Of a stretch of DNA of 64,000 nt, positions 14,107-29,867 are shown piece by piece. Each line of letters begins with the position of its first letter. Within the stretch, counting starts at the first letter, position 1. This stretch comes from Oscillospiraceae bacterium (GTDB taxonomy: Bacteria; Bacillota; Clostridia; Oscillospirales; Ruminococcaceae), in the NCBI GenBank assembly GCA_017427265.1, contig JAFRTG010000028.1, positions 1 to 64,000 of the forward strand, written 5' to 3'. The notes under the pieces are model-generated. The model had not been told where the DNA came from and did not search any database. It was given only the letters and a program-made list of their open reading frames with translations. The position numbers were made by a program, and so were the translations under genes.

Positions 14107-14143
14107 AGACGATTGTTCTCCTTATCATTTACATACAGAAAAT

Positions 14144-14333: not shown

Positions 14334-15449
14334 ATGAAACTGCAGGATCAAATCGGAAAGGACGAGACCATTCTCTGGTCGGGAAAAAAACATGTCTTTG
14401 TATCTTTTCTGGAATCCATCTTCAATCCGCTGATGCCGTTTGCATTGATCTGGGGACTGTTTGATTTTTCGTTCATTCATCTTATAGGTTCGACCGAGGC
14501 TGACGTCGGCACAGGATTCGGATTCATCCCTGTCTTTTTCCTGATTCATCTGATGCCTGTATGGCTTTATCTGGGCGGCATTCTGAGCTCTGCCTTTCGT
14601 GCCAAGCATACGGAATACTGCGTGACGGACAAAGCGGTCTATGTGCAGCACGGTCTGTTCAGCACCACGGTTGACCGGCGCGAGTTTTCAGATTTTACGC
14701 TGATTTCACTGAAGCAGGGACTGTTTGACAAGATGTTCTCTACCGGCGACGTCGTTGCGATGTGCAATGATTTCTCGACAGTACGGTCAAGACGCGGCAC
14801 GCGGACGGTTCAGAATAAGCTGGAAATCTGCAATGTGGCGGATTATCAGGCTGTTTATGATATTGTCAGGGATCAGCAGTCAGCGTTTTCGCCTGCACGC
14901 AATCCCGTTTTGCCGGATGCCGGTTACGGTACACCGAATCCGGGTTTTCAGATGCAGAGTCCGGGCTACGGTACACCGAATCCGGGTTTTCAGATGCAGA
15001 GTCCGGGCTACGGCACACCGAACCCCGGCTTTCAGACCCAGACGCCCGGCTACGGCACGCCGAATCCCGGCTTCAATATGACGAATCCTGCTGCAGCACC
15101 GCGGCCTGCTGCTGTCTCCAATCCGCAGGAAGTCATGCACGCCCGTTCGGGCAATATGCAGTTTTTCACGCAGCCTCAGCCGCAGCCGGTACCGCCCGCG
15201 CAGCCCGCGCCCAGACCCGGCGAAATGGCAGAGCTTGATATGTCAATGCTCTCCGCAGCGCCTTCCGCAGTACAGCAGCCGGCACAGCAGCCGGCAGCGC
15301 CGGTGTCTGCGTTTGATCCGGCGCAGTTCGGCGAAACCACGCCCTTTGAGCAGGATCCGCTTTCCGGTTTCAGCGATCCGACGCTGCGCTTTGCAGACCC
15401 CGATCAGTTCCGTGATCCGACGCTCGATTACTTCGATCAGGAACAGTAA
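14334..15449 (+). CDS. bPH (DUF304-like) membrane protein with a repetitive Gly/Pro/Gln tail
   Basis: 371 residues. Two hydrophobic segments (about 19-45 and 60-85) lead into a bacterial PH-like domain starting HTEYCVTDKAVYVQHG, running to about 180. The remaining half is low complexity: four tandem 14-residue repeats GYGTPNPGFQMQSP (197-252), then Pro/Ala/Gln-rich sequence with acidic DPTL motifs at the end. The PH-like domain is cytoplasmic in this family and its ligand is unknown. The tail may be a flexible interaction arm. An AAAGGAG ribosome site precedes the ATG. Confidence 0.8.
   Translation: MKLQDQIGKDETILWSGKKHVFVSFLESIFNPLMPFALIWGLFDFSFIHLIGSTEADVGTGFGFIPVFFLIHLMPVWLYLGGILSSAFRAKHTEYCVTDKAVYVQHGLFSTTVDRREFSDFTLISLKQGLFDKMFSTGDVVAMCNDFSTVRSRRGTRTVQNKLEICNVADYQAVYDIVRDQQSAFSPARNPVLPDAGYGTPNPGFQMQSPGYGTPNPGFQMQSPGYGTPNPGFQTQTPGYGTPNPGFNMTNPAAAPRPAAVSNPQEVMHARSGNMQFFTQPQPQPVPPAQPAPRPGEMAELDMSMLSAAPSAVQQPAQQPAAPVSAFDPAQFGETTPFEQDPLSGFSDPTLRFADPDQFRDPTLDYFDQEQ
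14922..15089 (+). repeat. Four tandem copies of a 42-bp coding repeat
   Basis: In-frame 42-bp units encoding GYGTPNPGFQMQSP. The first two copies are almost identical at DNA level, while the third and fourth diverge (QTQTP, NMTNP). This indicates recent duplication and probable copy-number variation. Confidence 0.9.
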
Positions 15450-15495
15450 ACGGGCTTGACAGATCCATCGGAGATATCTGTGCAAAGGAGATAAC

Positions 15496-17208
15496 ATGAA
15501 CCGAACAAGACGCATTTTATGCGGCGGAATTGCAGCGGCGGCGGGCTTCTTGACGGCCGCCCTGCTTTCTTTGTCAGCGGCCGCCGCGGAAGCATATGAA
15601 GCAGGCTGGCGGACAGAGGACGGCAAGCGCTATTACACGCTGGCTGACGGCAGTCCGGCGGCGGGTGTTGTCGAGGTCGATGATCTGCCCTATGTCTTTG
15701 CACCGAACGGCGCGCAGCAGACCGGCTGGCAGAATATCGGCGACAAGCGCTATTACTATGACCCGAAAACCGGTGCGCCCGTATTCGGGCAGCTGCACTG
15801 GCGGGGCGAGGATTACTATGTCACGCGGGAATCCGGCAAGCAGACCGGTCTGACGGAGACTGAAGCCGGCAGCGTGTTCGCGGATGATTACGGCGTGATT
15901 CTGCATGAGACATGGATCCCGGACGGCGATGTTCTGCGTTATGCCGGTGCTGACAGGTATCTTGTCAGCGGGGAAACGGTCATTGGCGGACAGCCCTTTC
16001 TGTTTGATGCAGACTGCACACTCCTGACCGGCTGGCAGACCGCCTCTGACGGTGTGACGCGGTACTATGCTGCCGAAGCGGCTGCGCCGGAAATCCGGAC
16101 AGGCTGGCTGGAGCTGCCGGAAGGAACTTATTATGCCGATCCCGATGCAGGCAGACTGTGCGGAATGCATGAGCTGGACGGGAAGTACTATGATTTTGCG
16201 GAGACCGGCGAGATGCTGACCGGCCTGTATGCGGTCGGCGGCGTGCGGTACTGGTTCACCGCGGAAGGCCGTGCGGAGAACTGCTGGCAGGAATCCGAAG
16301 GGCAGCGGTATTATTTCGGTGCGGACGGAGCAGCTGTCCGCGGGCTTTGTGAAATTGACGGAGACACGTACTATTTTGATGAGAACGGCGTCATGCAGAC
16401 CGGCAGCATCACACTGGATCAGCCGCGGTTCTTTAACACGGAAACAGGAAAATGCATTTCCGGCTGGCAGCAGACCGATGCCGGAACCGTTTATCTGGAC
16501 GGCCTGACGGGCACGCGCCTGACCGGTTGGCAGACAATCGGAGAATCGCAGTATTATTTCAGTCAGGAGGGCATCATGCAGACCGGTTCGGCGGAAATCG
16601 ACGGGAAACAGTGCCGCTTCGGGGCGGACGGCGTTTACCGTCCTGTGACAATCTGTCTGGATGCCGGGCATTACGGCAAATACAATCGCAGCCCGGTCAA
16701 CAATGCCTACTGGGAATCCGATTTCACATGGAAGATGCATCTGTATCTGAAGGAAGAATTGGAACAGTACGGCATTCAGGTTATCACGACGCGCACGGAT
16801 AAAGATACGGATCTGGCGCTGGAGAATCGCGGTCTGACCGCAAAGGGCTGTGACCTCTTCCTGAGTATTCACAGCAATGCCTGCGATTCTGCGGCGGAAG
16901 ATGCGCCGCTTGCATGCTGCGCGATCAACGGCTCTGCGGACGAGCTTGGGCTGATGCTTGCAAACTGCGTCGCGGATGTGATGCAGACAAAACAGCGCGG
17001 ACATATCTGGAAGCGCGAGGGCCTGCGCGGAGACTGGTACGGCGTGCTGCGCGGCGCGACCAAGGCCGGAACGCCTGCGATTCTGCTGGAACACAGCTTC
17101 CACACGAATCCGCGTGCAACGGCGTGGCTTCTGGTCGATGCAAACGTCCGGCGGATGGCGAAGGCGGAAGCTGAATTGCTCGCGCGGTACTTCGGACAGA
17201 TTCCATAG
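15496..17208 (+). CDS. Secreted N-acetylmuramoyl-L-alanine amidase with cell-wall-binding repeats
   Basis: 570 residues. Signal peptide (1-about 33), then roughly fifteen choline-binding-type repeats of about 20 residues (GWQNIGDKRYYYDPKTG and similar) to about 385, then an Amidase_3 domain (391-570). Zinc ligands and catalytic residues are visible: DAGHYG, the glutamate of WESDF, SIHSNA and LLEHSFHTNP. It cuts the MurNAc-L-Ala bond. The repeats should hold it to wall glycans or teichoic acids. It follows the bPH gene by 46 bases, with its own AAAGGAG site. Confidence 0.92.
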   Translation: MNRTRRILCGGIAAAAGFLTAALLSLSAAAAEAYEAGWRTEDGKRYYTLADGSPAAGVVEVDDLPYVFAPNGAQQTGWQNIGDKRYYYDPKTGAPVFGQLHWRGEDYYVTRESGKQTGLTETEAGSVFADDYGVILHETWIPDGDVLRYAGADRYLVSGETVIGGQPFLFDADCTLLTGWQTASDGVTRYYAAEAAAPEIRTGWLELPEGTYYADPDAGRLCGMHELDGKYYDFAETGEMLTGLYAVGGVRYWFTAEGRAENCWQESEGQRYYFGADGAAVRGLCEIDGDTYYFDENGVMQTGSITLDQPRFFNTETGKCISGWQQTDAGTVYLDGLTGTRLTGWQTIGESQYYFSQEGIMQTGSAEIDGKQCRFGADGVYRPVTICLDAGHYGKYNRSPVNNAYWESDFTWKMHLYLKEELEQYGIQVITTRTDKDTDLALENRGLTAKGCDLFLSIHSNACDSAAEDAPLACCAINGSADELGLMLANCVADVMQTKQRGHIWKREGLRGDWYGVLRGATKAGTPAILLEHSFHTNPRATAWLLVDANVRRMAKAEAELLARYFGQIP

Positions 17209-17233
17209 CGGGCGGCATATAAAGGAGTTCGAT

Positions 17234-17605
17234 ATGATATTGTACAGACCCGTCGGGACTGCGGAGCTGGAGCTGATTGCACAGAGCGGATACAGATGCT
17301 TTCCGCCCAGACTGCCGGAGCAGCCGATCTTTTATCCGGTACTGCATGAGGAATATGCAATCGAAATTGCGGAAAAATGGAATGCCAGAGATCATTCTGA
17401 CCATAAGGGCTATGTGACGGCCTTTGAGATTGACGACGAATACGGGTCACAGTTTGCGGTTCAGACCGTCGGCAGAAACTGCCATCAGGAATTGTGGATT
17501 CCGGCGGAAGAGCTTGAAAACTTCAACTGGAATATCATCGGAACAATCCGCGTGATTCATACGTTTTCAAAGGGAACAGAACCTGTCCGTGAAGGAGAAA
17601 TATAA
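17234..17605 (+). CDS. Small conserved protein often labelled ADP-ribosylation/crystallin J1
   Basis: 123 residues. The start at 17234 is set by AAAGGAG eight bases upstream. The family pattern is clear from memory: LYRPVGTAELELI near the N terminus, FPPRLPEQPIFYPVL in the middle, and ELWIPAEELENFN near the C terminus. Such proteins are widespread but their biochemical function is not established, and the database name may be misleading. It runs into the YbaK gene with no gap (stop then ATG), so it is probably co-translated. Confidence 0.7.
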   Translation: MILYRPVGTAELELIAQSGYRCFPPRLPEQPIFYPVLHEEYAIEIAEKWNARDHSDHKGYVTAFEIDDEYGSQFAVQTVGRNCHQELWIPAEELENFNWNIIGTIRVIHTFSKGTEPVREGEI

Positions 17606-18088
17606 ATGGCAAAACAGCAGCAGAAAACAAATGCGATGCGGATTCTGGAGCAGAAGGCGCTGCCGCACCGCGTCAATTTCTATGAATGCGGCGAATTCAC
17701 CGATGCCGTGCAGATCGCGGAGATGCTCGGACAGGATCCGGAGCAGACCTTCAAAACGCTGATGTGCGTCGGGAAAAGCGGCGGACACTATGCGTTCGTG
17801 ATGCAGGGCACGGCAGAGATGGATCTGAAAAAAGCCGCGGCCGCAGCCGGGGAGAAGTCGATCCAGCTGCTGCCGGTCAAGGAGATTCTTGCCGTGACCG
17901 GCTATATCCGCGGCGGCTGCACTGCAATCGGCATGAAAAAGGATTATCCGGTTTTCCTCGACGAAACGGCAATGCTCTACGACGAGATCATTGTCAGCGG
18001 CGGCAGGCTTGGCACGCAGATTTTTCTTTCGCCGGATGTGCTTCTGGAAGCGACCGGCGGAGCATACGCCGATCTGCAAACGGACTGA
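17606..18088 (+). CDS. ybaK: YbaK/EbsC-family Cys-tRNA(Pro) deacylase
   Basis: 160 residues. Trans-editing enzyme that hydrolyses mischarged Cys-tRNA(Pro). Family features: FKTLMCVGKSGGHYAFVM, the central YIRGGCTAIGMKK and the C-terminal GGRLGTQIFLSP. Full length. Co-directional with the preceding small gene. Confidence 0.9.
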   Translation: MAKQQQKTNAMRILEQKALPHRVNFYECGEFTDAVQIAEMLGQDPEQTFKTLMCVGKSGGHYAFVMQGTAEMDLKKAAAAAGEKSIQLLPVKEILAVTGYIRGGCTAIGMKKDYPVFLDETAMLYDEIIVSGGRLGTQIFLSPDVLLEATGGAYADLQTD

Positions 18089-18205
18089 TACGCATATTTT
18101 CCTTTTTTTTCCGTGTATGACTGCGCGGTCTGCGGGCAGACTGAAAGTGTCCGGCATCTGTCGGGCAGCATTGCAGAGAAATCTGCGGAAAGGAACGGCA
18201 TCAAT

Positions 18206-18526
18206 ATGAATCATGATACAGCAGCGGTACTGCTGGCGGCTGCCGCCGCAGGTCTGCTGACCGGCTGCGGCACAGATCACCGCACGGCAAATGAAAGCTC
18301 CGCGGCATACACCGTTACGGAAGAAGCGGTGCCGGATGACGGCAACTCGCTCTATGAGCCGGACGATGTGCACCGCAGCACGGATCGCTCGGAGCCTGAT
18401 GTGATCGACCGCGCGGAATCCGCATTGGATTCTGCAAAGGATGCGGCAGAGGAAATGGTGACGGATGCTTCGCGGGCGGTCTCGGATGCAGCGCGCGATC
18501 TGACGGAAACCGACCGTCAGCAATAA
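18206..18526 (+). CDS. Small lipoprotein, unknown function
   Basis: 106 residues. The start at 18206 has GGAAAGGA upstream. Short signal peptide with lipobox LTGC near residue 22, then a hydrophilic, acidic, probably disordered or helical chain with repeated DAA/SDAARD segments. No known domain. Probably anchored to the outer face of the membrane. Confidence 0.65.
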   Translation: MNHDTAAVLLAAAAAGLLTGCGTDHRTANESSAAYTVTEEAVPDDGNSLYEPDDVHRSTDRSEPDVIDRAESALDSAKDAAEEMVTDASRAVSDAARDLTETDRQQ

Positions 18527-18547
18527 GCCGGTTTTTCCGGAAAAAAG

Positions 18548-18602
18548 AATCTCCGGAGCGCAGGCGGAAAACGGTTCCGCATTGCTGCTCCGGAGATTTT
18601 TT
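18548..18602 (+). terminator. Terminator after the small lipoprotein
   Basis: Two-part stem: AATCTCCGGAGC (18548-18559) / GCTCCGGAGATT (18587-18598), with inner GCGGAA (18664 is outside; the pair is 18564-18569 / 18575-18580 TTCCGC), followed by TTTTTTG. Confidence 0.85.
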
Positions 18603-18618
18603 GCTTCCGGCGATTTGC

Positions 18619-18647
18619 TTGACATTTCAGGGTACCCATGATATAAT
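18619..18647 (+). promoter_or_regulatory. Perfect consensus promoter driving a non-coding transcript
   Basis: TTGACA (18619-18624), 17 bp, TATAAT (18642-18647), with TGA before the -10 (extended -10). No plus-strand reading frame follows within the next 90 bases before a terminator. Confidence 0.85.
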
Positions 18648-18653
18648 AGAAAC

Positions 18654-18744
18654 TGAAATTGCCTGAGAACAGGCAGTCCGGCCGGGCATATCCGGCAGCC
18701 GGATAAATGCTCCCGCAGATTCGGCGGGGGCGTTATTTATTTTT
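18654..18744 (+). ncRNA. Candidate small RNA of about 90 nt
   Basis: Downstream of the consensus promoter come three hairpins in a row: TGCCTG-AGAA-CAGGCA (18660-18675), a Cys-free C/G-rich stem TCCGG/CCGGA with an inner CCGG/CCGG (18677-18703), and an intrinsic terminator GCTCCCGC (18709-18716) / GCGGGGGC (18724-18731) followed by GTTATTTATTTTT. No start codon with a ribosome site is present. The 3' end overlaps the last codons of the convergent DUF896 gene. It does not match SRP, 6S, tmRNA or riboswitch consensus I know. Confidence 0.6.
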
Positions 18745-18945
18745 GGCATCTGCAACGCGGCGGATGACATTGCCGTCCTTGTCCACAATGACGGTATGCT
18801 CCAGCGTTCCGATGAGATTTTTGCGGAACAGTTCGCGGTACTGATTCCGGAGCACTTCACGCTCCGCGATTTCGGCTTCATCGAGACCGACGGTCTTGGC
18901 CTTGTGTGCCAGCTCGTTGATCCGGTCAAGCAGTCCCTGATCCAT
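18733..18945 (-). CDS. DUF896 family protein (YnzC-like)
   Basis: 70 residues with the family pattern: LLDRINELAHKAKTVGLDEAEIAEREVLRNQY, a three-helix bundle motif, then EHTVIVDKDGNVI. B. subtilis YnzC is induced with the SOS operon yneA, but function is unknown. I prefer ATG at 18945 by length match with the family. GTG at 18954 is in frame and also near a GGAAAGG site. Its 3' end overlaps the terminator of the plus-strand small RNA candidate. Confidence 0.85.
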   Translation of the reverse strand: MDQGLLDRINELAHKAKTVGLDEAEIAEREVLRNQYRELFRKNLIGTLEHTVIVDKDGNVIRRVADAKNK

Positions 18946-18970
18946 GCGGGTCACTTCCTTTCCTTTTTGT

Positions 18971-18999
18971 ATTATAGCATATTATCCTACAAAATGCAA
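18971..18999 (-). promoter_or_regulatory. Promoter of the DUF896 gene
   Basis: Minus strand: TTGCAT (18994-18999), 17 bp, TATAAT (18971-18976), with TGC before the -10. Confidence 0.8.
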
Positions 19000-19103
19000 G
19001 CGGAGTGTATCATGCTTTATGATACGGATTGCCTGCCGGCGGGCTTCAGATCAATGCAGGCGGGCGCTGCCCGCAAGCGGAAAAAACAGCGGGAGATACA
19101 GAT

Positions 19104-19817
19104 ATGATTGCTCTTGTAACCGGTGCGTCGGGCGGAATCGGCGCAGCAGCTGCACGGCGTCTGGCTGCGGAAGGCTATACGGTCATCGTGCATTATCACA
19201 GCGCAAAGCAGAAGGCGGAGCAGCTCGCCGCGGAAATCGGCGGCGCAGCATGGCAGGCCGATCTCGGCGATTTTGCGCAGATTGACGCGATGATCGACGG
19301 CATTTTCAGCCGGTACGGCCGGATTGATGTACTTGTCAACAATGCGGGCATCGCGCTTTCGGGGCTGTATCAGGAGATTTCCGATGCGGATGCGCTGCGG
19401 CTGTTTGCGGTCAATCTGGGCGGCACGATGCACACATCCAAGCGCGTGCTCCCGCAGATGATCCGGGAACACCGCGGCTGCATCATCAATATTGCCTCTG
19501 TCTGGGGCGAGGTCGGCGCGGCCTGCGAGGTGCATTATTCTGCCGCAAAGGCAGCGGTCATCGGCTTTACGAAAGCGCTGGCCAAGGAGACAGGCCCGTC
19601 CGGCATCCGCGTGAACTGCGTGTCGCCGGGTGTGATCGACACCGAAATGAACCGGATGCACGATGCAGAGACCATGCAGGCGCTCGCAGAGGAGACACCG
19701 CTCGGCTGCATCGGAAAACCGGAGGATGTTGCGGAAGCGATTGCGTTTCTGGCCTCGGAGCGCGCAGCGTTCATCACCGGTCAGATTCTGCCCGTGAACG
19801 GAGGATTCAACATATGA
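19104..19817 (+). CDS. Short-chain dehydrogenase/reductase (FabG-like)
   Basis: 237 residues. Rossmann motif TGASGGIG near the N terminus, NNAG, the catalytic Ser in NIASVWGE, YSAAK (Tyr-x3-Lys) and the NVSPG-like segment NCVSPGVIDTEM, ending with PVNGGF. NAD(P)-dependent. The length and motifs resemble 3-oxoacyl-ACP reductase, but no fatty-acid genes are adjacent, so the substrate is uncertain. ATG at 19104 has GGGAG upstream. The last codons overlap the next gene by 4 bp. Confidence 0.88.
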   Translation: MIALVTGASGGIGAAAARRLAAEGYTVIVHYHSAKQKAEQLAAEIGGAAWQADLGDFAQIDAMIDGIFSRYGRIDVLVNNAGIALSGLYQEISDADALRLFAVNLGGTMHTSKRVLPQMIREHRGCIINIASVWGEVGAACEVHYSAAKAAVIGFTKALAKETGPSGIRVNCVSPGVIDTEMNRMHDAETMQALAEETPLGCIGKPEDVAEAIAFLASERAAFITGQILPVNGGFNI

Positions 19818-20413
19818 ACGAACAGGAAGAAGCACGTTTTTCACAGCAGATAGCATTTCTGCTTGAGATGGATAAGATGAAGAATATCTACCGGCAGACC
19901 CGTGTGCTGCATGAGGACCGCGCCGAAAACGATGCGGAACATGCGTGGCATCTTGCGATGCTGGCGCTCGTGCTGCATGAATATGCAAATGAGCCGGTCG
20001 ATCTGCAGAAGGTGCTTGCGACCGTCCTGATTCATGATGTTGTGGAGATTGACGCCGGAGATACCTATGCCTATGATGCGGCAGGCAATGCGACAAAGGC
20101 CGAACGGGAGCAGAAGGCTGCCGACCGGCTCTACGGACTGCTTCCGCCGGAGCAGGGTGCTTATCTGCGGAAGCTCTGGGACGAATTTGAGGCGCAGTCT
20201 ACGCCGGAGGCGCGCTTTGCCAATGCGCTCGACCGCGTGCAGCCGCTTTTGCTGAACTATACCAAGCACGGCGAATCGTGGAAAACGCACGGCACGAGAA
20301 AGGAACAGGTCATGCAGCGGATGCAGCCGGTCTATGACGGTTCGCAGACGCTCGGTGCATTTGCGTCAGAGATCATCCGGCGCGCAGCGGAAGAAGGCTT
20401 GCTGAAGGAATAA
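19814..20413 (+). CDS. HD-domain phosphohydrolase (YfbR/5'-deoxynucleotidase-like)
   Basis: 199 residues. HD-fold motifs: DAEHAWHLAMLAL (His then later), LIHDVVEIDAGDT with the HD pair and the following E/D residues. YfbR-like and HDDC2-like enzymes dephosphorylate deoxynucleoside monophosphates, which is plausible here. Overlaps the SDR gene by ATGA, so expression is coupled. Confidence 0.82.
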   Translation: MNEQEEARFSQQIAFLLEMDKMKNIYRQTRVLHEDRAENDAEHAWHLAMLALVLHEYANEPVDLQKVLATVLIHDVVEIDAGDTYAYDAAGNATKAEREQKAADRLYGLLPPEQGAYLRKLWDEFEAQSTPEARFANALDRVQPLLLNYTKHGESWKTHGTRKEQVMQRMQPVYDGSQTLGAFASEIIRRAAEEGLLKE

Positions 20414-20440
20414 CCGCAGCCGGAAGAAGGGGGAAACAGC

Positions 20441-23026
20441 ATGAAACAACTGACCGTCGGGCTGATGGCACATGTCGATGCCGGAAAGACGACGCTTGCG
20501 GAGGCGCTGCTGTTCCGCACGGGCGAGATCCGGAAATGCGGCCGTGTCGATCACGGGGATTCATGGCTGGATACCAATGAGATCGAGCGCAGCCGCGGCA
20601 TTACGGTGTTTGCGCATCAGGCGTCGATCACGGCAGGTGATACCGTGTTCACGCTGCTGGATACGCCGGGGCATGTCGATTTTTCCGCGGAGACCGAACG
20701 CACCATGCAGGTGCTGGATTATGCGGTGCTGGTTATCAGCGGCACGGACGGCGTACAGAGCCATACGCGGACGCTCTGGCGGCTGCTGGAGCGCTACGGC
20801 GTGCCGGTGATCCTGTTTGTCAATAAAATGGATCTTTCCGACCGCACGGAAACGGCGCTGATGCAGGAATTACAGGGCAGACTCTCACCGAACTGCGTGC
20901 AGTTTGATACCGATTACGGCACGGTCTGCGAGAATGCCGCGGCCTGTTCGGAAACGCTCATGACCGAGTATTTTGATACGGATACGCTGCCGCAGGAGAT
21001 GCTGCGGGCAGCTGTTGCAGAGCGGAGGATTTTCCCGGTCTGCTTCGGGGCTGCGCGGAATCTGGACGGCGTGGAATCGCTGCTGCAGATTCTGGTGCAG
21101 TATACAAAGGAGCCGGCGCGCACACCGGCATTCGGGGCGCATGTGTTCAAGATTTCCGCAGATGCCAAGGGCAGCCGTCTGACCTTCCTCAAGGTGCGCG
21201 GCGGGACGCTCCGGAACCGCGACGAGATTCGTTATACCGGCAAGGATCATGCGGAGCATGTTGAAAAGATCACCGGAATCCGGTTTTATTCCGGTGCAAA
21301 ATACATTGCTTCCGACGAGGCGGAGGCGGGGGCGGTCTGTGCGGTGATCGGTCTTTCCGCGGCCTATGCGGGCATGGGAATCGGCTGCTGTGCGGATACG
21401 GCAGAGGCTGCGCTGACGCCGGTCATGCGGTATCGCGTGCTGCTGCCGGAGGAGATTGCGCCGCAGGACGCGATGGCGCATTTTCAGCAGCTCGAAGCCG
21501 AGGATCCGCAGCTGCATGTGCAGTGGGACAGCCACAGCCGCGCAATGTTTGTCCAGCTGATGGGCGCTGTGCAGCTTGAGGTACTGACCAAGCAGATTGC
21601 AATGCGGTTCGGCTATGACGTCGGGTTTGACAGCGGTGCCGTGACCTACCGCGAAACCATTGCAGAGGCGGTCGAGGGCGTCGGGCATTATGAGCCGCTC
21701 CGGCATTATGCAGAGGTGCATTTCCTGATGGAGCCGCTGCCGGAGGGAAGCGGGCTGCAATGCGGGACGAGCTGCTCCGAGGATGCGCTTGACCGCAACT
21801 GGCAGCGCTTGATTCTGACGAATCTGCTTGAAAAAACACATGTCGGCGTGCTGACCGGCTCGCCGATTACGGATATGAAGATCACCCTTGTGAGCGGAAA
21901 GGCACATCTCAAGCACACCGAGGGCGGCGACTTCCGGCAGGCGACCTACCGCGCCGTGCGGCAGGGTCTGCGTTCGGCAGAGAGCATTCTGCTCGAACCG
22001 TATTACGATTTTACGCTGGAGATTCCGGCAGACTGCGTCGGCCGTGCCATGACGGATATTCAGCAGCGCGCCGGACAGTTTGAGCCGCCGGAGATCGACG
22101 GCGACCGCGCTGTGCTGACGGGCAGCGCGCCGGTCTCGGAGCTGAACGATTATGCGTCCGAGGTGCTGGGCTATACCAAGGGCAGGGGAACGCTGACGCT
22201 TTCCGTAGCGGGATACCGTCCCTGCCACAACGCGGAGCAGGTGATTGAGCAGATCGGCTACGATGCGGACAGTGATCTTGAAAACAGCGCAGATTCTGTG
22301 TTTTGCTCGCACGGAGCGGGCTTTGTTGTCGGCTGGCAGGAGGTGCCGATGTATATGCATCTGCCGTCGATGCTGCCGCACCGCTACGACTTTCCGGAGG
22401 AGGAGATTGCTGCGGAGCCTGCGGTTCGTGCGGCTGCACTTCCGACGGCAGGCGATGACGAGCTCATGGCGATCTATGAACGCACCTACGGCAAAATTCA
22501 GCGCGACAAGCCAAAGGCAATGCGGCGCAATCCGGCCGCGGAGCTGGCGGAGGGCGATGTGCATGTTCCGCCGCCGCCGGAAAAGGAATATCTGCTGGTG
22601 GACGGCTACAACATTATTTTTGCGTGGGATTCGCTGAAGCAGCTTGCGCAGGAGCATCTTGACTATGCGCGGGAGCGTCTGCTGCATCTGCTGCAGAATT
22701 ATCAGGGCTACCGGAAATGCGAGGTGATTCTCGTGTTTGATGCGTATAAGATCAAGGGGCACGGAACGGAAATCGAGCAGCACGGCGGTGTCAGCGTGGT
22801 CTATACGAAAGAGGCGGAAACGGCAGATGCCTATATTGAGCGGGTCTCAAAGCAGCTTCTGAAGCAGAACCGCGTCCGTGTTGCGACATCGGACGGGCTT
22901 GAGCAGCTGATTATTCTCGGAAACGGCGCCGTGCGGATTTCTGCACGGGAATTTGAAGCGGAGATCCGGGCGGCCGAGCAGGAGATCCGTGCGTTGATCG
23001 GAGGGCAGAAGGAATGGAACCGATAA
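20441..23026 (+). CDS. TetM-like translational GTPase fused to a C-terminal YacP/Rae1-type NYN nuclease domain
   Basis: 861 residues. The N-terminal 650 or so is an EF-G/TetM-class factor: G1 AHVDAGKT (10-17), switch RGITV, G3 DTPGHVDF, G4 NKMD, then domains II, III, IV and V (YRETI, RQATYRAVRQGLRS, GRAMTDIQQRAG). After a Pro/Glu-rich linker, residues about 716-855 form an NYN/PIN domain: LVDGYNIIFAWD, LVFDAYKIKG, the acidic ETADAYIE and VATSDG, as in B. subtilis Rae1 (YacP), a ribosome-associated A-site mRNA endonuclease. TetM binds the same A-site region. Whether it gives tetracycline resistance is unknown; ordinary ribosome-rescue activity is as likely. Confidence 0.87.
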   Translation: MKQLTVGLMAHVDAGKTTLAEALLFRTGEIRKCGRVDHGDSWLDTNEIERSRGITVFAHQASITAGDTVFTLLDTPGHVDFSAETERTMQVLDYAVLVISGTDGVQSHTRTLWRLLERYGVPVILFVNKMDLSDRTETALMQELQGRLSPNCVQFDTDYGTVCENAAACSETLMTEYFDTDTLPQEMLRAAVAERRIFPVCFGAARNLDGVESLLQILVQYTKEPARTPAFGAHVFKISADAKGSRLTFLKVRGGTLRNRDEIRYTGKDHAEHVEKITGIRFYSGAKYIASDEAEAGAVCAVIGLSAAYAGMGIGCCADTAEAALTPVMRYRVLLPEEIAPQDAMAHFQQLEAEDPQLHVQWDSHSRAMFVQLMGAVQLEVLTKQIAMRFGYDVGFDSGAVTYRETIAEAVEGVGHYEPLRHYAEVHFLMEPLPEGSGLQCGTSCSEDALDRNWQRLILTNLLEKTHVGVLTGSPITDMKITLVSGKAHLKHTEGGDFRQATYRAVRQGLRSAESILLEPYYDFTLEIPADCVGRAMTDIQQRAGQFEPPEIDGDRAVLTGSAPVSELNDYASEVLGYTKGRGTLTLSVAGYRPCHNAEQVIEQIGYDADSDLENSADSVFCSHGAGFVVGWQEVPMYMHLPSMLPHRYDFPEEEIAAEPAVRAAALPTAGDDELMAIYERTYGKIQRDKPKAMRRNPAAELAEGDVHVPPPPEKEYLLVDGYNIIFAWDSLKQLAQEHLDYARERLLHLLQNYQGYRKCEVILVFDAYKIKGHGTEIEQHGGVSVVYTKEAETADAYIERVSKQLLKQNRVRVATSDGLEQLIILGNGAVRISAREFEAEIRAAEQEIRALIGGQKEWNR

Positions 23027-23496
23027 CACCCGATGAGATGAGACTGAAGCGCGTGTATTATCACACGGAGCACACCGAATGCATGACCTATTTCCGGATC
23101 ACCGGCAATTTTGATCCGGATGTGATTACAGAGTATCTCCGGCTGGTGCCGGAGCAGATTCACCGGGTCGGGGAGCTGCGCCCGAACGGCACATCCTACG
23201 GCGAAGCGGTCTGGCGTTTCGGAACCGTCAAAAGCGAACGGCCGGACACCGCCAATCAGATGATGCAGACGATCGACCCGCTGCTGACCAAGGCCGATCT
23301 GCTGCGGAAGATCAAGCTGACCTACGACGCACGGCTCTGGCTGATTGTGGTGCCGCTTGTGCGCTATGACGAGCCGGTTCCGATGCTGGCGCCGTCGCTT
23401 GCGGTGATGCGCTTCTGCATGGAGACGGGTACGGAAATCGACATTGATCTGTATGTCGGATGTCCGGACGAAATGACGGGAAACGCCGGCTTCTGA
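23014..23496 (+). CDS. DUF4279 family protein
   Basis: 160 residues. The ATG overlaps the end of the GTPase-nuclease gene by 13 bases, with AGAAGGA upstream, so translation is coupled. Family features: an N-terminal YFRITGNFDPDVITEYLRLVPEQIHRVGE segment and the later WLIVVPLVRY ... EIDIDLYV. DUF4279 proteins have no firmly known function. Some occur near toxin-immunity genes. Coupling to a ribosome-acting protein is worth noting but the link is unproven. Confidence 0.8.
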   Translation: MEPITPDEMRLKRVYYHTEHTECMTYFRITGNFDPDVITEYLRLVPEQIHRVGELRPNGTSYGEAVWRFGTVKSERPDTANQMMQTIDPLLTKADLLRKIKLTYDARLWLIVVPLVRYDEPVPMLAPSLAVMRFCMETGTEIDIDLYVGCPDEMTGNAGF

Positions 23497-23533
23497 GCAC
23501 GGACGGTACAGTATGGATAAGTGAGGAATACCA

Positions 23534-23971
23534 ATGAATATAAAGGTCATCCGGGCAACCGAAACATGGCAGCAGGCCGGTGCGTACTATGTCCGCATTC
23601 AGGGCATGGCAAAGCAGCACGGGATCACGCTGCGCCGGGAGTTCGATGAATATGATACGCCGGATACGAAATATATCGTTCTGACCGACGACGATTTTCC
23701 TGTTGCGACCTGCCGCTTCTATCCGCTTGACGCGCATTCTGCGATGATCGGCAGAGTTGTCGTGCTGCCGGAATACCGCGGAACGGGTCTTGGAAAGCAG
23801 GTGATGACGGAAGCCGAGCAGTGGCTCCGGGAGCTTGGCTTTGCAGAAGCTGTGATTGAAAGCCGCGACGTTGCCGTCGGGTTCTATGAAAAAATCGGGT
23901 ATGCCGTTGCGGACTCGCATATTATTCACGGGGATACCTTTGCGTGCATCCGGATGGAAAAGGCGATCTGA
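23534..23971 (+). CDS. GNAT family N-acetyltransferase
   Basis: 145 residues. Acetyl-CoA motif VVVLPEYRGTGLGKQVMTEAEQWL and the flanking beta-strand segments VATCRFYP and AVIESRDVAVGFYEKIGY. Resembles ElaA/YjdJ-like small GNATs. The substrate is unknown. Confidence 0.88.
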   Translation: MNIKVIRATETWQQAGAYYVRIQGMAKQHGITLRREFDEYDTPDTKYIVLTDDDFPVATCRFYPLDAHSAMIGRVVVLPEYRGTGLGKQVMTEAEQWLRELGFAEAVIESRDVAVGFYEKIGYAVADSHIIHGDTFACIRMEKAI

Positions 23972-24046
23972 CGCGCCCGGACAGGCTGTGATACAAACGA
24001 AAAATATGCCTGCGGGTTTACCCTGCTGCTGTACGGAGTTGATAAA

Positions 24047-24955
24047 ATGTTAGAAGTTGCATTGCTCGGCACGGGCGGAACCATGCCGATGAAAAACCGT
24101 TGGCTGACGAGCTGCCTTGTCCGGAATGAGGGACAAGGCGTGCTGATCGACTGCGGTGAGGGAACGCAAATTGCTCTGAAGTGTGCCGGACGTTCCGTGC
24201 AGAAGCTCGATCTGCTCTGCTTTACGCATTATCATGCAGACCATATCAGCGGACTGCCCGGTCTGCTGCTTTCGATGGGACTGGAAGGCCGCACCGATCC
24301 GCTGACGCTCTGCGGGCCGAAGGGGCTGCGCAGAACGGTCGAGGGGCTGCGCGTCATTGCGCCGGAGCTGCCGTTCCCGCTTTCCTATCTTGAATTTGAA
24401 CAGCCGGTCGAGACACTGCAGTTTGCAGGGCTTGAGATCACGGCGTTTGCGGTGCAGCATACGATTGCCTGCTACGGCTACCGGCTGCATCTGCCGCGCA
24501 TCGGCAAGTTTGACCCGGAGCGCGCAAAAGCGGCGGGTATTCCCGTGCGCGCATGGGGTCTGCTGCAGAAGCAGGCCTCCGTCACACTCGACGGCGTGAC
24601 CTATTATCAGGAGCAGGTGCTCGGTGCGCCGCGGCGCGGACTGACCGTGACCTACTGCACCGACACGCGCCCGGTTCCGGCCATTACCAAATATGCGGAT
24701 GATGCAGACCTCCTGATTCTGGAAGGCATGTACGGCGAACCGGAAAAGCTGGACAAGGCACTGGAGACCCGGCACATGATGTTTGAAGAGGCCGCACAGA
24801 TCGCCGCGGACGCCTGTGCACACCGGCTCTGGCTGACGCATTACAGCCCGTCGCTGCCGAATCCGCAGGATTATCTGCCGCTGGCGCGTGCCGTCTTTCC
24901 GCAGACAGTCTGTCCCGTTGACGGGCAGCAGATTGACCTGCAGTATACGGACTGA
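24047..24955 (+). CDS. rnz: Ribonuclease Z
   Basis: 302 residues. Metallo-beta-lactamase fold with the tRNase Z motif FTHYHADHISGLPGLLLSMG, further metal ligands in VQHTIACYGYRL and TYCTDTRP, and the terminal LWLTHYSPSLPNP. It cuts the 3' trailer of tRNA precursors lacking encoded CCA. Two such tRNAs (CAT and Thr) are in this window, and the CCA-adding enzyme lies 1.1 kb downstream on the same strand. Confidence 0.95.
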   Translation: MLEVALLGTGGTMPMKNRWLTSCLVRNEGQGVLIDCGEGTQIALKCAGRSVQKLDLLCFTHYHADHISGLPGLLLSMGLEGRTDPLTLCGPKGLRRTVEGLRVIAPELPFPLSYLEFEQPVETLQFAGLEITAFAVQHTIACYGYRLHLPRIGKFDPERAKAAGIPVRAWGLLQKQASVTLDGVTYYQEQVLGAPRRGLTVTYCTDTRPVPAITKYADDADLLILEGMYGEPEKLDKALETRHMMFEEAAQIAADACAHRLWLTHYSPSLPNPQDYLPLARAVFPQTVCPVDGQQIDLQYTD

Positions 24956-24981
24956 GCAGAAAACCGGAGGAAGGCAGAAAT

Positions 24982-26070
24982 ATGGATGTGATTGATGAAA
25001 TCCGCGCACTTGCGGAGGAATACGATTCGTGCGGCGGGAACGACGGCTGGTTCGCCCGGAAAAGGCTGTTCAATCCGCCCGCCGCAATCGAGGAGGTGCG
25101 TGCGTTTGAGCAGGAAATGCATGTCACCTTGCCGGAAGATTTTGTACGCTATCTCACGGAGCTCGGTAACGGCGGTATCGGTCCGGATTACGGGATCTGG
25201 TCGCTGGACGAGATGCGGAAGCACAATCCCTATGCGCCCCAAAGCGGCGATCTGCCGCCGATGATCGGGGGCGGACTTTCCGCGGAGGAATGGAAGATGT
25301 TTGCTGAGAAGGCTGAGGATGCGGACGACGATGACGAAATTGAGGCACTTGAACAGCAGCTCATCGCGGGCGGCATCTTCATCGGTACGCCGGGCTGCAC
25401 CATGGATACGCTGCTGATGTGCAGAGGCGCTGCGGCAGGCGAAACGCTGGTTGTCGATTTTGATTATCTTTCCTACTATAACAAGCCCATTGAAAAAGGT
25501 TTCCCGTTTGCGGACTGGATGATCGAGGGGCTGAACGACAGAATCGCGGGCAAGAAATACGGCATGGATGTCGAAATGGTCACACGGTACAACGAAAACG
25601 GTCACGGCATGGCGGGTGAAAAGCTGACAGATTTCCTCATTGATCTCCGGATTGCGCAGCTGATTGATGAGGGTGACGCAAATGCAGCGAACCTTGCGCC
25701 GGCAATCCGCGCCTTTTATGAGCATGCGTTCGGGAACGGTTCATTCCAGATGTGGGTTGCGATACATGATGGGAAGGTGATCGGCACGGTCGGGCTGACG
25801 CTGACCGAAAAGCCGCCCTATTCCGCCAATCCGAGCGGAAAGATCGGGCTGCTTTCCAGCATGTATGTTGTACCGGAATTCCGGCGGCGCGGCATCGCAA
25901 AATTTCTGCTGGGATATGTTCTGCGCTGGGCGAAGCGAAACGGCATCGGCACGGTGCAGATTACGGCCTCTGAACAGGGCGTGAAGCTCTATGAGGCGTG
26001 TGGCTTCACACACAACGATCGGTTTTTGCAGTATAATATATCAGCAATGCAGAAGGATGTGACGATTTGA
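24982..26070 (+). CDS. SMI1/KNR4 (SUKH)-GNAT fusion protein
   Basis: 362 residues. Residues 1-about 190 resemble SMI1/KNR4: LTLPEDFVRYLTELGNGGIGPDYGIWSL-type start, then an acidic insert, PGCTMDTLLMC and VVDFDYLSYYN. Residues about 205-355 form a GNAT acetyltransferase with the acetyl-CoA motif VVPEFRRRGIAKFLLGYVL and ASEQGVKLYEACGF. SUKH domains often serve as immunity or adaptor modules, and GNAT modifies small molecules or proteins. A role cannot be assigned. It overlaps the following cca start (TTGA). Confidence 0.83.
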   Translation: MDVIDEIRALAEEYDSCGGNDGWFARKRLFNPPAAIEEVRAFEQEMHVTLPEDFVRYLTELGNGGIGPDYGIWSLDEMRKHNPYAPQSGDLPPMIGGGLSAEEWKMFAEKAEDADDDDEIEALEQQLIAGGIFIGTPGCTMDTLLMCRGAAAGETLVVDFDYLSYYNKPIEKGFPFADWMIEGLNDRIAGKKYGMDVEMVTRYNENGHGMAGEKLTDFLIDLRIAQLIDEGDANAANLAPAIRAFYEHAFGNGSFQMWVAIHDGKVIGTVGLTLTEKPPYSANPSGKIGLLSSMYVVPEFRRRGIAKFLLGYVLRWAKRNGIGTVQITASEQGVKLYEACGFTHNDRFLQYNISAMQKDVTI

Positions 26071-27416
26071 ATTTCACGATTTCGCCGCCCGCGCCGGTGC
26101 AGAAGGCTCTGGATACGCTTTCGGCAGCGGGCTTTGAGGCGTTTGTTGTCGGCGGCTGCGTGCGCGATGCACTGCGCGGTGCAGAGCCGCATGACTGGGA
26201 CTGCACGACAAATGCCAAGCCGGATATGATCTGCAAATGCTTCCGGGATTATCATGTGATCGAAACAGGCCTGCAGCACGGAACGGTCACGGTCGTCATT
26301 GACCGGATGCCGATTGAGATTACGACCTACCGCATTGACGGGGTCTATGCCGATCACCGCAGGCCGGATTCGGTGACGTTTACGGATTCGCTGACCGACG
26401 ATCTGGCGCGCCGCGATTTTACGGTCAATGCAATGGCCTATCATCCGGAACGCGGTCTGATCGACCCGTTCGGCGGGACAGACGACCTGAAAGAAGGCGT
26501 GATCCGCTGCGTCGGCAATCCGCAGGACAGATTTGATGAGGACGGCCTGCGGATTCTGCGTGCCATGCGGTTTGCGTCCGTGCTGAATTTTGCCGTTGCG
26601 CCGGAAACTGCGGACGCAATTCACACGCAGAAAGACCTCTTGAAGCACATTTCGGCGGAGCGGATCGACACGGAGCTGACAAAGCTGCTCTGCGGCACCG
26701 GTGCGGAGACGGTCTTGCAGACGTTTGCCGATGTGCTGTTTACAGTTCTGCCGGAGCTTGCGCCGATGTATCAGTTCGATCAGAAGAATCCGCATCACGA
26801 TTACGATGTTTATACGCACACGCTGAAGGCCGTTTCGGCCTGTCCGCCGGAACCGGTTCTGCGCTGGGCGGCGCTGCTGCATGATACAGGAAAGCCGCAC
26901 ACATTCACAGAGGATGTGCGCGGCGGACATTTTTACGGCCATGCAGTTGTCAGCAAGCAGATTGCAGCGCGTGCGCTCAAGGCGATGAAATGCGACCGCA
27001 AACGCTATGACAGGGTGCTGCTGCTGGTCGAGAAGCATGATCTTGTTCTGACACCGAACGAAAAGCAGATCAAGCGAATCGTCCGGCAGATCGGGGATGA
27101 GGCGGCGGAGCAGCTGCTTCTGCTGCACAAAGCCGATGTGACGGCACAGGCGGCCTGTCACCGCGCAGAGCGAATCGAAGAATCCGACCGGCTGCTCACA
27201 CTGCTGCAGGAGCTCCGTGCGGCCGATGCCTGCATGAGCCTGAAACAGCTTGCAGTTTCCGGAAAGGATTTGCTGGATGCGGGCGTTCCGCAGGGAAAGC
27301 AGATTGGCTTAACCCTGAACCGCCTGCTGGAAGCTGTCATCGAAGGCGCGCTGCCGAATGAGAAACGGGAGCTGCTGCAATATGCGGAGAAGCTGCGGGA
27401 GACCGGCTCTCTGTGA
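26067..27416 (+). CDS. cca: CCA tRNA nucleotidyltransferase with HD domain
   Basis: 449 residues. Class II poly(A)/CCA polymerase: N-terminal VVGGCVRDALRGAEPHDWDCTT (metal-binding GG and DxD), ERM-like RDFTVNAMAYHP and DPFGGTDDL, then the RNA-binding region (DEDGLRILRAMRFAS). An HD domain follows (LLHDTGKPHTF), with a further C-terminal helical segment. It adds CCA to tRNA 3' ends. The start is a TTG overlapping the SMI1-GNAT stop, with AGAAGG about 12 bases upstream. Confidence 0.95.
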   Translation: MNFTISPPAPVQKALDTLSAAGFEAFVVGGCVRDALRGAEPHDWDCTTNAKPDMICKCFRDYHVIETGLQHGTVTVVIDRMPIEITTYRIDGVYADHRRPDSVTFTDSLTDDLARRDFTVNAMAYHPERGLIDPFGGTDDLKEGVIRCVGNPQDRFDEDGLRILRAMRFASVLNFAVAPETADAIHTQKDLLKHISAERIDTELTKLLCGTGAETVLQTFADVLFTVLPELAPMYQFDQKNPHHDYDVYTHTLKAVSACPPEPVLRWAALLHDTGKPHTFTEDVRGGHFYGHAVVSKQIAARALKAMKCDRKRYDRVLLLVEKHDLVLTPNEKQIKRIVRQIGDEAAEQLLLLHKADVTAQAACHRAERIEESDRLLTLLQELRAADACMSLKQLAVSGKDLLDAGVPQGKQIGLTLNRLLEAVIEGALPNEKRELLQYAEKLRETGSL

Positions 27417-27801
27417 GGCGGTTCTGCATCCGTTCGGAACCCGGAATGCGTTCCATAATCGGCATTTTGACCATATGAATCATACTGTTTTTGAGGCTTG
27501 AAGGCACAGAAAGCATCAATATTGCACAAATCAATCCGGGAATTTTCAGGCCGGATTTGTGGAATCAGTACATCATATAAAAATTGTTTAATCTTTGAAA
27601 AGCGCTTGCATTTCTGCGTAATATGTGGTATAATATAAAAAAGTGCGTATTAGTCGTTTCATGTAATTATTATCTGCGGCCTGCAGCGCTGCTTTGCCGG
27701 CTGCCGGATCGTACTGAAACGGCAGGTATACGAAACAGGAATTGGTATTATCTTGACGGATGAGCCGGAATATTCCGCTGCAGATCCGAGGTGGGCACTG
27801 A
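27417..27801. other. Intergenic region before the pilus operon
   Basis: 385 bases. A weak stem AATCCGG (27533-27539) / CCGGATT (27551-27557) may end cca transcription. The pilus promoter is at 27606-27634, then a roughly 165-base leader with a CTGCCG (27701-27706) / CGGCAG (27720-27725) hairpin and the GAGGTGGG ribosome site. No further gene is visible. Confidence 0.6.
27606..27634 (+). promoter_or_regulatory. Promoter of the pilus operon
   Basis: TTGCAT (27606-27611), 17 bp, TATAAT (27629-27634), with TGG before the -10. Confidence 0.8.
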
Positions 27802-28374
27802 ATGGACGATCCGAATATAACAGCTGCTGCGGATCCGGTATCTGCCGGGGCAGCGCCGGCAAATGCAAGGGAAAAACCGCAGAAAAAGCGGACTGCCGGG
27901 TATTATGCGGCAGCATTCTTTTTGAAGATCGGCCTTACGGCTGCTGTTCTCTGGCTTTTGCTGACGTTTGCGGCAGGTGTTTACATCTGCCATACCAACA
28001 GCGCATATCCCTCGATCAGGGACGGCGATTTCTGCCTGACCAATCGTCTGGCCAAGCCGGAGCAGGGAACCATGATCGTCTACAGACATGACGGCGCGAT
28101 CCGGTTCGGGCGTATTATTGCGTTCGGCGGAGACAGGGTCAGCCTCTTCACGGACTATATTTCCGTGAATGATTCCTGCATATCCGATCAAACCGTTTAT
28201 CCCAATTTACTGGACGGATCAGCGGTCAGCTATCCGTACACTGTACCGGAAAACTGTGTGTTCGTTCTGAACGATTTCCGCAGCGACCTTTCCGACAGCA
28301 GAACCTTCGGCGGCATACCGCTCGAAGAGCTGCAGGGCGCTGTTGTGTTCACAATGCGAATGCGCGGCATATAA
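27802..28374 (+). CDS. Signal-peptidase-I-like pilus assembly protein (SipA-like), catalytic lysine missing
   Basis: 190 residues. One membrane segment (about 43-62), then the type I signal peptidase fold. Box B NSAYPSIRDGD keeps the serine (Ser67), and box E VFVLNDFRSDLSDSRTFG is intact. Box D reads FGRIIAFGGD, which puts Gly103 at the position of the catalytic lysine (usual YVKRVIGLPGD). Streptococcus pyogenes SipA/Spy0127, needed for pilus polymerisation, also has glycine there and no canonical dyad. So this is probably a pilus chaperone, not an active peptidase. It is first in the pilus operon. Confidence 0.83.
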   Translation: MDDPNITAAADPVSAGAAPANAREKPQKKRTAGYYAAAFFLKIGLTAAVLWLLLTFAAGVYICHTNSAYPSIRDGDFCLTNRLAKPEQGTMIVYRHDGAIRFGRIIAFGGDRVSLFTDYISVNDSCISDQTVYPNLLDGSAVSYPYTVPENCVFVLNDFRSDLSDSRTFGGIPLEELQGAVVFTMRMRGI

Positions 28375-28407
28375 GAACTGAATTCAAAGTTAAAGGAGGA
28401 TTTTTAT

Positions 28408-29862
28408 ATGAAAATGAAGAAGAAAACGGCTGTGTCTGTTTCACTCGGCCTGATTGCTGCTGCACTGGCAGCTGCTCCCATGCATGTTACAGCGGCCGGA
28501 ACCGGCTATACGCCCGGATTGACTTCAGCAACGGACGGTACGGATCCTGTCAGCATAAATACAACTTCTTTCGACAAATATCTCGTCATGGATGTAAATG
28601 CAAATGTACCGAATGCGACATTTGATTTCTCCATTGATAAGTATGACAGCACGAAGGACCCGAAGGCTGTCCTTGTTGATGCGGCAGGAGGCAATCTTGC
28701 CATTATCAACGGTGTGACTGCACAGAGCAGCGGAACACTGGACTTCAAGGCCGGTGACGCTGCGAACACCGGATCTGCAGCTGCCGGAGAAGTCAAATTT
28801 GTGGTTTCTGATCCGACTGTAACAGAAGGTGCGTCCGGTGCAGATACTGCTGTTGACTGGCAGGATGCTGCTTCCGGAAATGAAAAGTATGCAAAGAAAA
28901 AACTGACGCTCGATTTCAGCACTGTGCAGTTTACCGAGCCGGGCGTTTACCGTTATCTGATTACGGAAACCGGTACAAATCAGGGCATTTCCAATGACAC
29001 CGGCGTGACCGGCGCAAACAATACATACAGAACACTGGATGTTTATGTCGAGGATTATGCCGATTACTATGCGAAGCTTTCCGACAATACCGGCTATACT
29101 GAGCCGACCGGAAAAGAGCTTTTCATCGCCGGTTACGTTCTCTATGAAGGCAAGCACGATGATGCGCCTTCTGCAACTGCAACGTCCGCGACACCGAAGA
29201 GCACAAGCTACACAAACGCCTATACATCCTATGACCTGACGTTCAGCAAGACCGTTACGGGCAATCAGGGCTCCAAGGATAAGTATTTTGCATTTACCGT
29301 GAAGATTGAAAATGCTGTTGCGGGTGCTGTGTATGATGTTTCGTATGAGAATGCGGATCAGACGATCAGTGCGAATCCGAATGCGGCAACAACCTGCATT
29401 ACAGCGGATGTCACGCAGCCTGCCAAGCTGTATATGACAACTGACGGCACAAGTGCAATGAGCGAAACGAATACCGGTGTGACGACGAAGGAATTTACGT
29501 TCTATCTCCAGCACGGTCAGAGCATCGAGATCAAGGGTCTTGCCGAGGGAACAAAGTATACCGTCACGGAAGCACCGGAGGACTATACGCCTTCCGCAGC
29601 AATCACAGGCGATAAGCAGACCGGCGACGGAACCGGTGACGGCACTCTGATCGAGCTTGCAGACAATGCGATGAGCGATGATTACATCAAAGACGATACC
29701 GTGATCGACTTCACCAACAACCGGCAGGGCGTAATCCCGACCGGTATCCTCTCGACCCTTGCGGGTTCTCTCGGCCTGACGGCGGTCGGTGTTGCAGGCA
29801 TCGCAGGCTGCATGTTCTGCATGAAGAAAAAGAAGAAATCCGGGGCTGATGAGAAAGAATAA
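28408..29862 (+). CDS. Major pilin with FctA-like isopeptide domain and VIPTG sorting signal
   Basis: 484 residues. Signal peptide (1-about 30, cut near VTAAG), then a first domain with TFDFSIDKYDSTKD and the FctA element FTEPGVYRYLITETG (glutamate for a Lys-Asn isopeptide). A second domain starts near DLTFSKTVTGNQGSKDKYFAF and includes YTVTEAPEDY. The C terminus reads GVIPTGILSTL, a hydrophobic segment and KKKKKS. VIPTG matches the (E/Q)VPTG-type signal of FCT pilins used by class B sortases. AAAGGAGG lies 8 bases before ATG. The sortase gene follows directly. Confidence 0.88.
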   Translation: MKMKKKTAVSVSLGLIAAALAAAPMHVTAAGTGYTPGLTSATDGTDPVSINTTSFDKYLVMDVNANVPNATFDFSIDKYDSTKDPKAVLVDAAGGNLAIINGVTAQSSGTLDFKAGDAANTGSAAAGEVKFVVSDPTVTEGASGADTAVDWQDAASGNEKYAKKKLTLDFSTVQFTEPGVYRYLITETGTNQGISNDTGVTGANNTYRTLDVYVEDYADYYAKLSDNTGYTEPTGKELFIAGYVLYEGKHDDAPSATATSATPKSTSYTNAYTSYDLTFSKTVTGNQGSKDKYFAFTVKIENAVAGAVYDVSYENADQTISANPNAATTCITADVTQPAKLYMTTDGTSAMSETNTGVTTKEFTFYLQHGQSIEIKGLAEGTKYTVTEAPEDYTPSAAITGDKQTGDGTGDGTLIELADNAMSDDYIKDDTVIDFTNNRQGVIPTGILSTLAGSLGLTAVGVAGIAGCMFCMKKKKKSGADEKE

Positions 29863-29867
29863 CCACC

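Follow-up and report, generated by a model that had tools for sequence, protein, structure and literature searches.

A translational GTPase fused to a Rae1-type NYN nuclease in Clostridia, a candidate factor for ribosome surveillance

What task might be served by a protein that carries a complete translational GTPase and an mRNA-cutting type of nuclease domain in one chain? This question is raised by an open reading frame (ORF) in the genome of an Oscillospiraceae bacterium (assembly GCA_017427265.1), located within the first 64,000 nucleotides of contig JAFRTG010000028.1; this whole stretch is called the window in the following. It is only partly known how stalled ribosomes are recognised in bacteria before the mRNA is cut, and the list of nucleases that cut mRNA in stalled ribosomes is called incomplete in a passage of a recent review (PMC12320835). 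The fusion, which is widespread in the class sampled, unites a cutter and what is probably a module for recognition in a single chain. The answer we favour, with a confidence slightly better than even, is that the protein is a GTPase-delivered version of Rae1, which would find stuck ribosomes and cut the mRNA in their A site, the GTPase acting in the stead of the tail of free Rae1.

The frame (20441-23026, forward strand) is open throughout and encodes 861 residues from an ATG, which is preceded by a Shine-Dalgarno-like stretch. Pfam matched GTP_EFTU at residues 4-223 (1e-49), EFG_IV at 400-513, EFG_C at 517-598 and NYN_YacP at 718-853 (2e-49); thus, the original prediction of a single frame joining a complete EF-G-like GTPase to a C-terminal NYN domain was borne out. 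A genome scan identified 579 loci encoding a relative of the window protein. For each of the best 80 of these, a single frame of at least 843 residues comprises both parts, the identity to the window protein being 52-87%; because this holds for all 80 related loci, the fusion is no chance event or assembly join. Both halves are under purifying selection: compared with eight close relatives, the ratio of nonsynonymous to synonymous substitution rates was 0.12-0.18 for the GTPase (residues 1-597) and 0.05-0.20 for the NYN domain (residues 715-850).

The fusion is therefore real, conserved and widespread in the class sampled; its architecture is already in print. A part of the survey of Atkinson 2015 (PMC4342817) describes a YacP-like NYN domain on Tet proteins of ten Clostridiales species, together with possible roles as an RNase acting on ribosomal RNA (rRNA) and in resistance, which means that the combination as such is not new. 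These proteins have the same architecture and, as matched by description and not by sequence, very likely belong to the same family. Whereas they were named Tet, the present data part them from Tet(M) and link them to Rae1. What the present data add is that free Rae1 is nearly excluded, that a split form exists, that the GTPase stands apart from Tet(M), and that the tail has been lost.

In the GTPase half, the alignment showed intact motifs (P-loop AHVDAGKTT, switch II DTPGHVDF, and NKMD), which place the protein in the translational GTPase superfamily as defined by a G domain with P-loop, DTPGH, and NKxD. Its five EF-G-like domains are those of the ribosomal protection proteins Tet(M) and Tet(O). 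The tip loop of domain IV, however, reads KHTEGGDF, as compared with YSPVSTPADF in Tet(M) and VDSSEMAF in the separate EF-G-like gene of the host (C24, so named by likeness). The motif HTxGGDF, x being any residue, occurs in 85 of 86 fused GTPases (83 times as HTEGGDF; the exception, L157, has HTEPPDF) and in all 20 unfused ones, and conservation in the domain-IV stretches is as high as around the P-loop. The window GTPase (residues 1-592) is 28.5% identical to one Tet(M); it scored 400.5 bits with the NCBIfam Tet model NF012153 (cut-off 775) and 295 bits with the EF-G model TIGR00484 (cut-off 659.4). A quick tree with 75 rows placed the subfamily in a clade of its own, apart from Tet(M) and EF-G, with 100% support in the Shimodaira-Hasegawa-like approximate likelihood ratio test (SH-aLRT), the outgroups being only one Tet(M) and one EF-G, both on long branches. 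Judged by sequence, the GTPase is a distinct subfamily. The term "TetM class", which had been applied to it, is thus loose, and its narrow sense fails on score, identity, domain-IV tip and C-terminus alike, as Tet(M) has neither the C-terminal element nor the NYN domain of the window protein. When the whole structural model was used for a fold search, the matches listed were EF-G-like chains, the GTPase part filling the list; the lack of a Tet(M) chain among the 50 matches listed says nothing against kinship.

These comparisons bear on the proposal, taken from Atkinson 2015, that a tetracycline ribosomal-protection protein has gained an RNase and thereby constitutes a new resistance mechanism. 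The domain order is indeed identical to that of Tet(M) and Tet(O), and in the part of that survey mentioned above such proteins were classed as Tet and resistance by means of the RNase was suggested. Moreover, an unfused homologue with 46% identity is annotated as a Tet-family protein on a plasmid. Nevertheless we consider this explanation very unlikely: the cut-off of the Tet model was clearly missed, the subfamily is separated from Tet(M) in the quick tree, and the tip loops, which according to a passage of PMC4342817 dislodge the drug, differ and are conserved here as KHTEGGDF. In addition, only 2 of 1278 plasmid records with any match covered at least 80% of the query; one of them, among the matches listed, is a 518-kb Monoglobus replicon, which is typed as non-mobilizable and on which the fusion bears the annotation "translation factor GTPase family protein". 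Presence in about one third of the class sample likewise suits a lineage gene more than a spreading resistance gene. The unfused homologue (L162, 1486-3420), a GTPase of this subfamily, resides on plasmid pMP1046A of Ligilactobacillus salivarius, has the tip HTVGGDF and is annotated as a TetM/TetW/TetO/TetS tetracycline resistance protein; the resistance label is possibly wrong. Two annotated relatives thus bear a generic translation-GTPase label (fused) and a Tet resistance label (unfused), and our reading, if true, could correct false resistance calls.

The nuclease half scored 168.1 bits with NYN_YacP (PF05991; cut-off 24.6) and 173.3 bits in the search of the genome. It has the Rae1 fold and matches Rae1 in N10, Q108 and the acidic residues, all four of which (the equivalents of D7, D53, D81, and D104) are present as predicted; their loss in close relatives was looked for and not seen. 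Rae1/YacP of Bacillus subtilis (PDB codes 5mq8 and 5mq9) is free, about 170 residues long, and carries a motif of the FEKxRR type at its C-terminus; parts of two papers describe it as an A-site mRNA endonuclease (PMC6613710, PMC12320835). Its gene follows yacO, an rlmB homologue, as stated in a passage of the former. In contrast, the window's domain is fused behind a GTPase, its gene is sited elsewhere, and the FEKxRR-type motif is missing.

Fused and free proteins were compared for this tail. From the DGYN motif to the end, 28 of 28 free Rae1-type proteins comprise 162-166 residues, whereas 85 of 121 fused proteins comprise less than 150; the window protein has 141. The terminal motif [LF]-[EDQ]-x-[ILMFWY]-R-[RKL] was found within the last 30 residues of 28/28 free proteins and of 0/124 fused ones (the window protein, L163, 91 unique fused proteins and 31 others); a stricter form gave 24/28 versus 0/124. 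The looser of these two forms occurred elsewhere in the domain in two of the 124, and the longer fused tails end without the two basic residues of the motif. The last arginine of the motif corresponds to residue 166 of B. subtilis Rae1; one free protein of the 28 (L110) has a leucine there. According to a part of PMC6613710, R166P and frameshifts were isolated as suppressors of an efp mutant, from which its authors inferred loss of function.

For a view of the distribution, a class sample of 341 genomes was surveyed, the class being Clostridia going by the named relatives. A frame of fusion length (at least 780 residues) is present in 112 genomes, including G276, where it is cut by a contig end; ten more contain a fusion which is broken, split between contigs, or at a contig edge (G246, G410, G413, G371, and G511 were inspected as loci; G332, G404, G494, G503, and G265 by coordinates alone). 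A free NYN gene together with a free subfamily GTPase was found in 12 genomes. Another 83 have the free NYN gene while none of their GTPases was assigned to the subfamily; besides 82 others, this figure includes G515, where a free NYN extended by a long tail makes up a frame of 342 residues. Seven genomes have a free subfamily GTPase without an NYN gene (L122-L128), and 115 have neither part, including G435 with a sub-cut-off match only; in two more the GTPase is incomplete, being broken in G425 and lying at a contig edge in G324. Of the 163 genomes matching at 1e-60, 143 were used for calling GTPases; the other 20, which were weaker (best 3e-98), were taken as other GTPases by score. G326 carries two fusions. 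In the order sample, an NYN domain occurs in 60 of 197 genomes, one each, and 57 of these lie in frames of 833-1334 residues; the three shorter frames have 465, 478, and 160 residues, the last of which (G107) is truncated by the end of its contig. Of the 249 genomes in the phylum sample, 134 gave a match; it lay in a frame of fusion length in 16 genomes, 11 of them outside the class.

A free NYN gene accompanies the fusion in only 1 of 112 fusion genomes, as compared with 95 of the 219 genomes that have no fusion at all. Free Rae1 is thus nearly excluded from fusion genomes; weak second NYN matches in G329, G391, and G430 were below cut-off. The sole genome of the 112 having both a fusion and a free NYN, G513 (L154, the free NYN, and L155), offers a natural test of a difference in targets.

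These figures help to judge whether the chain merely houses two independent functions, the GTPase being a translation factor, the NYN domain an ordinary Rae1, and the fusion setting nothing but dosage. The existence of GTPase-only and free-NYN-only genomes agrees with such an arrangement, as does the linker, which is long and poorly conserved. However, it contains one conserved helix (DDELMAIYERTYG; residues 672-683 in the model), free Rae1 is nearly excluded, and all 124 fused NYN domains lack the tail motif, which argues that they are not simply Rae1 appended to a GTPase. We therefore regard independent functions as unlikely. Between domain V and the linker, a C-terminal element (residues 598-641) is conserved and common to the unfused GTPases; it is absent from the one Tet(M) and the one EF-G compared. 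Since alignments to structures of archaeal EF2 and Snu114 extend to residues 617-636, this element may resemble the C-terminus of EF2.

The 12 genomes with separate genes indicate that the partners also co-occur unfused, which is a classic argument for a shared pathway, here in 12 genomes only. In these split genomes the two genes are hundreds of kilobases apart or on different contigs. In the quick tree, the 20 unfused GTPases borne by chromosomes or contigs form one clade (100% SH-aLRT) with an unresolved base, and the L. salivarius plasmid homologue falls outside. In the NYN tree, calculated without L156, which could not be cut out, free Rae1 is one clade (100/99) except for L145 and L147 of the split genomes G431 and G449; the fused domains fall into two groups, of which one is weakly supported (78/92), with L175 standing by itself. 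The free NYN genes L145 and L147 are nearer to the fused-type domains and are candidates for a fission or a pre-fusion state. Given these trees, one fusion, several fusions or a later fission may lie at the origin.

Six neighbourhoods of free NYN genes were inspected. L151 is flanked, according to Pfam, by an rRNA-methylase gene and a sigma factor, resembling rae1 next to yacO; the surroundings of L143, L144, and L154 are like it by eye only, and those of L145 and L147 are unlike it, L147 having a sigma factor on one side and FeoB on the other. The methylase neighbour in L151 might speak for a function in the maturation of stable RNA or ribosome assembly, with the NYN domain trimming rRNA or tRNA precursors and the GTPase serving as an assembly or recycling checkpoint. 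A role of the NYN domain in the maturation of rRNA and tRNA has been proposed (Anantharaman and Aravind 2006, cited in a part of PMC4342817), and mitochondrial EF-G2, bound with a recycling factor, is among the fold matches. Still, Rae1, the relative that has been characterised, is reported to cut mRNA in the A site, and the 115 genomes with neither part are unlike what a core maturation step would leave; such a role appears quite unlikely to us.

A one-piece role in ribosome surveillance gains in likelihood from two findings: free Rae1 is nearly excluded from fusion genomes, and 12 genomes have both proteins as separate genes. EF-G-type factors place domain IV in the A site. The EF-G-shaped half would bind the factor site of ribosomes whose A site is free or wrongly filled, which the domain-IV tip KHTEGGDF may probe. 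Domain IV and Rae1 would compete for the A site and could not act simultaneously; a sequential order is therefore proposed. After GTP hydrolysis, domain IV would withdraw from the A site, and the NYN domain, tethered by the linker of about 70 residues, which is in principle long enough, could enter and cut the exposed codon. The truncated mRNA left by the cut would go to rescue by transfer-messenger RNA (tmRNA) and SmpB, both of which the host encodes (161.7 bits, above the gathering score, and 184.5 bits, respectively). We infer ribosome binding, GTP gating, A-site cleavage, the order of events, and the role of the tail. In eukaryotic no-go decay (Hbs1-Dom34 plus an endonuclease) and with bacterial SmrB/MutS2, factor-assisted recognition of stalled ribosomes is likewise combined with mRNA cutting; this is a comparison of working principles without a claim of homology, and here GTPase and nuclease form one chain. 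More far-reaching, and in our opinion possible though rather doubtful, is the idea that the GTPase replaces the C-terminal tail by having taken over its ribosome docking, and that a GTP-gated single-polypeptide no-go-decay factor replaces free Rae1 in about one third of the class, acting in trans where split. If the surveillance reading is right, Rae1 gains a partner factor, and GTP control of A-site cleavage becomes directly testable.

Several points weigh against this surveillance reading, beginning with the competition for the A site just mentioned. In the literature searched, outside which the main Rae1 papers lie, we found no experiment or functional paper on the fused protein. The model of the whole protein (predicted template modelling score 0.54; linker mostly below 50 in the predicted local distance difference test) leaves the relative placing of the two halves unfixed. 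Neither part needs the other, as the 7 GTPase-only and 83 free-NYN-only genomes demonstrate, and both are missing from 115 of 341. The counts for the near-exclusion are uncorrected for kinship. The tail motif was derived from the free sequences after viewing them, and the argument based on it hangs on a single B. subtilis allele.

Table 1. Positions in the window of the fused gene, its parts and the adjoining ORF
Feature	Position	Strand	Basis or remark
Fused coding sequence: translational GTPase - C-terminal element - linker - Rae1-type NYN nuclease	20441..23026	+	861 residues, ATG start
GTPase domains G, II, III, IV, V (residues 1-597)	20441..22231	+	Pfam, alignments, model, fold match
Domain-IV tip loop KHTEGGDF (residues 491-498), subfamily hallmark	21911..21934	+	Alignment
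C-terminal element of the GTPase (residues 598-641, ...SVFCSHGAGF...W.EV..YMH)	22232..22363	+	Alignments, secondary structure of the model
Linker (residues 642-714), mostly low confidence	22364..22582	+	Alignment, model
NYN endonuclease domain of the Rae1/YacP type (residues 715-861); terminal motif of free Rae1 lacking	22583..23023	+	
D721, equivalent to B. subtilis Rae1 D7	22601..22603	+	
D767, equivalent to B. subtilis Rae1 D53	22739..22741	+	
D796, equivalent to B. subtilis Rae1 D81	22826..22828	+	
D818, equivalent to B. subtilis Rae1 D104	22892..22894	+	
DUF4279 ORF	23014..23496	+	Overlaps the stop of the fusion by 13 bases; neighbour judged outside the device

The host genome (3.82 Mb, 99.3% complete) has its nearest named relatives among Oscillospiraceae and Ruminococcus metagenome-assembled genomes from gut and rumen (L012 at 87%). 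The fusion is its sole NYN_YacP match, leaving no free Rae1-type protein of about 170 residues, and the other matches to the full protein reached at most 102 bits each. Its rlmB-type gene (L215) lies between a recombinase and an unmatched frame of 889 residues, surroundings which neither support nor refute a relocation from a vacated rae1 slot.

With respect to the neighbourhood, the overlap with the DUF4279 gene was confirmed; this gene, which had been described as coupled, probably does not belong to the device. As a working partner DUF4279 was rejected: it was matched in 7 of 80 related loci (L012-L015 and L017-L019, not L016), all among the eight closest, while in 75 of the 80 the sequence extends 800 bases or more past the fusion. 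An upstream ORF with an HD domain stops 27 bases short of the fusion's ATG; HD, SDR, and RNase Z genes are each near the fusion in 4 of the 80 loci (high identity) and, like DUF4279, in the closest loci only. No obvious fixed gene context was seen in 17 loci whose frames were listed without annotation. There was no Rfam match in window positions 14000-32000 at an E-value of 0.5, no tandem repeat in 19000-25000, and no anti-phage defence match for the fused protein in PADLOC at 0.001.

Carriage of the fusion by phages was considered and not upheld. Two scaffolds named "Bacteriophage sp.", MT835563 (L165) and MT835514 (L216), cover 96% of the fused protein. Since FeoB, MraW, a class I tRNA synthetase and further housekeeping proteins are encoded among its six frames, MT835514 looks like a bacterial chromosome; MT835563 is less clear, its four frames encoding an NAD(P)H-hydrate dehydratase, a peptidoglycan-binding protein and two proteins without match.

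Three further observations concern other parts of the window. An ORF at 24982-26070, seen in 0 of the 80 related loci, combines an SMI1/KNR4 (SUKH) start with a GNAT acetyltransferase end, which is an unusual pairing. At 18619-18744, a perfect sigma-70 consensus promoter (12/12, extended -10) is followed about 60 bases on by a strong terminator-like hairpin, and the two possibly delimit a short RNA; this segment has no Rfam match, and DNA similarity to four relatives starts only near 18733. Finally, the ORF at 15496-17208 of this gut bacterium encodes an Amidase_3 protein with repeats of the choline-binding type.
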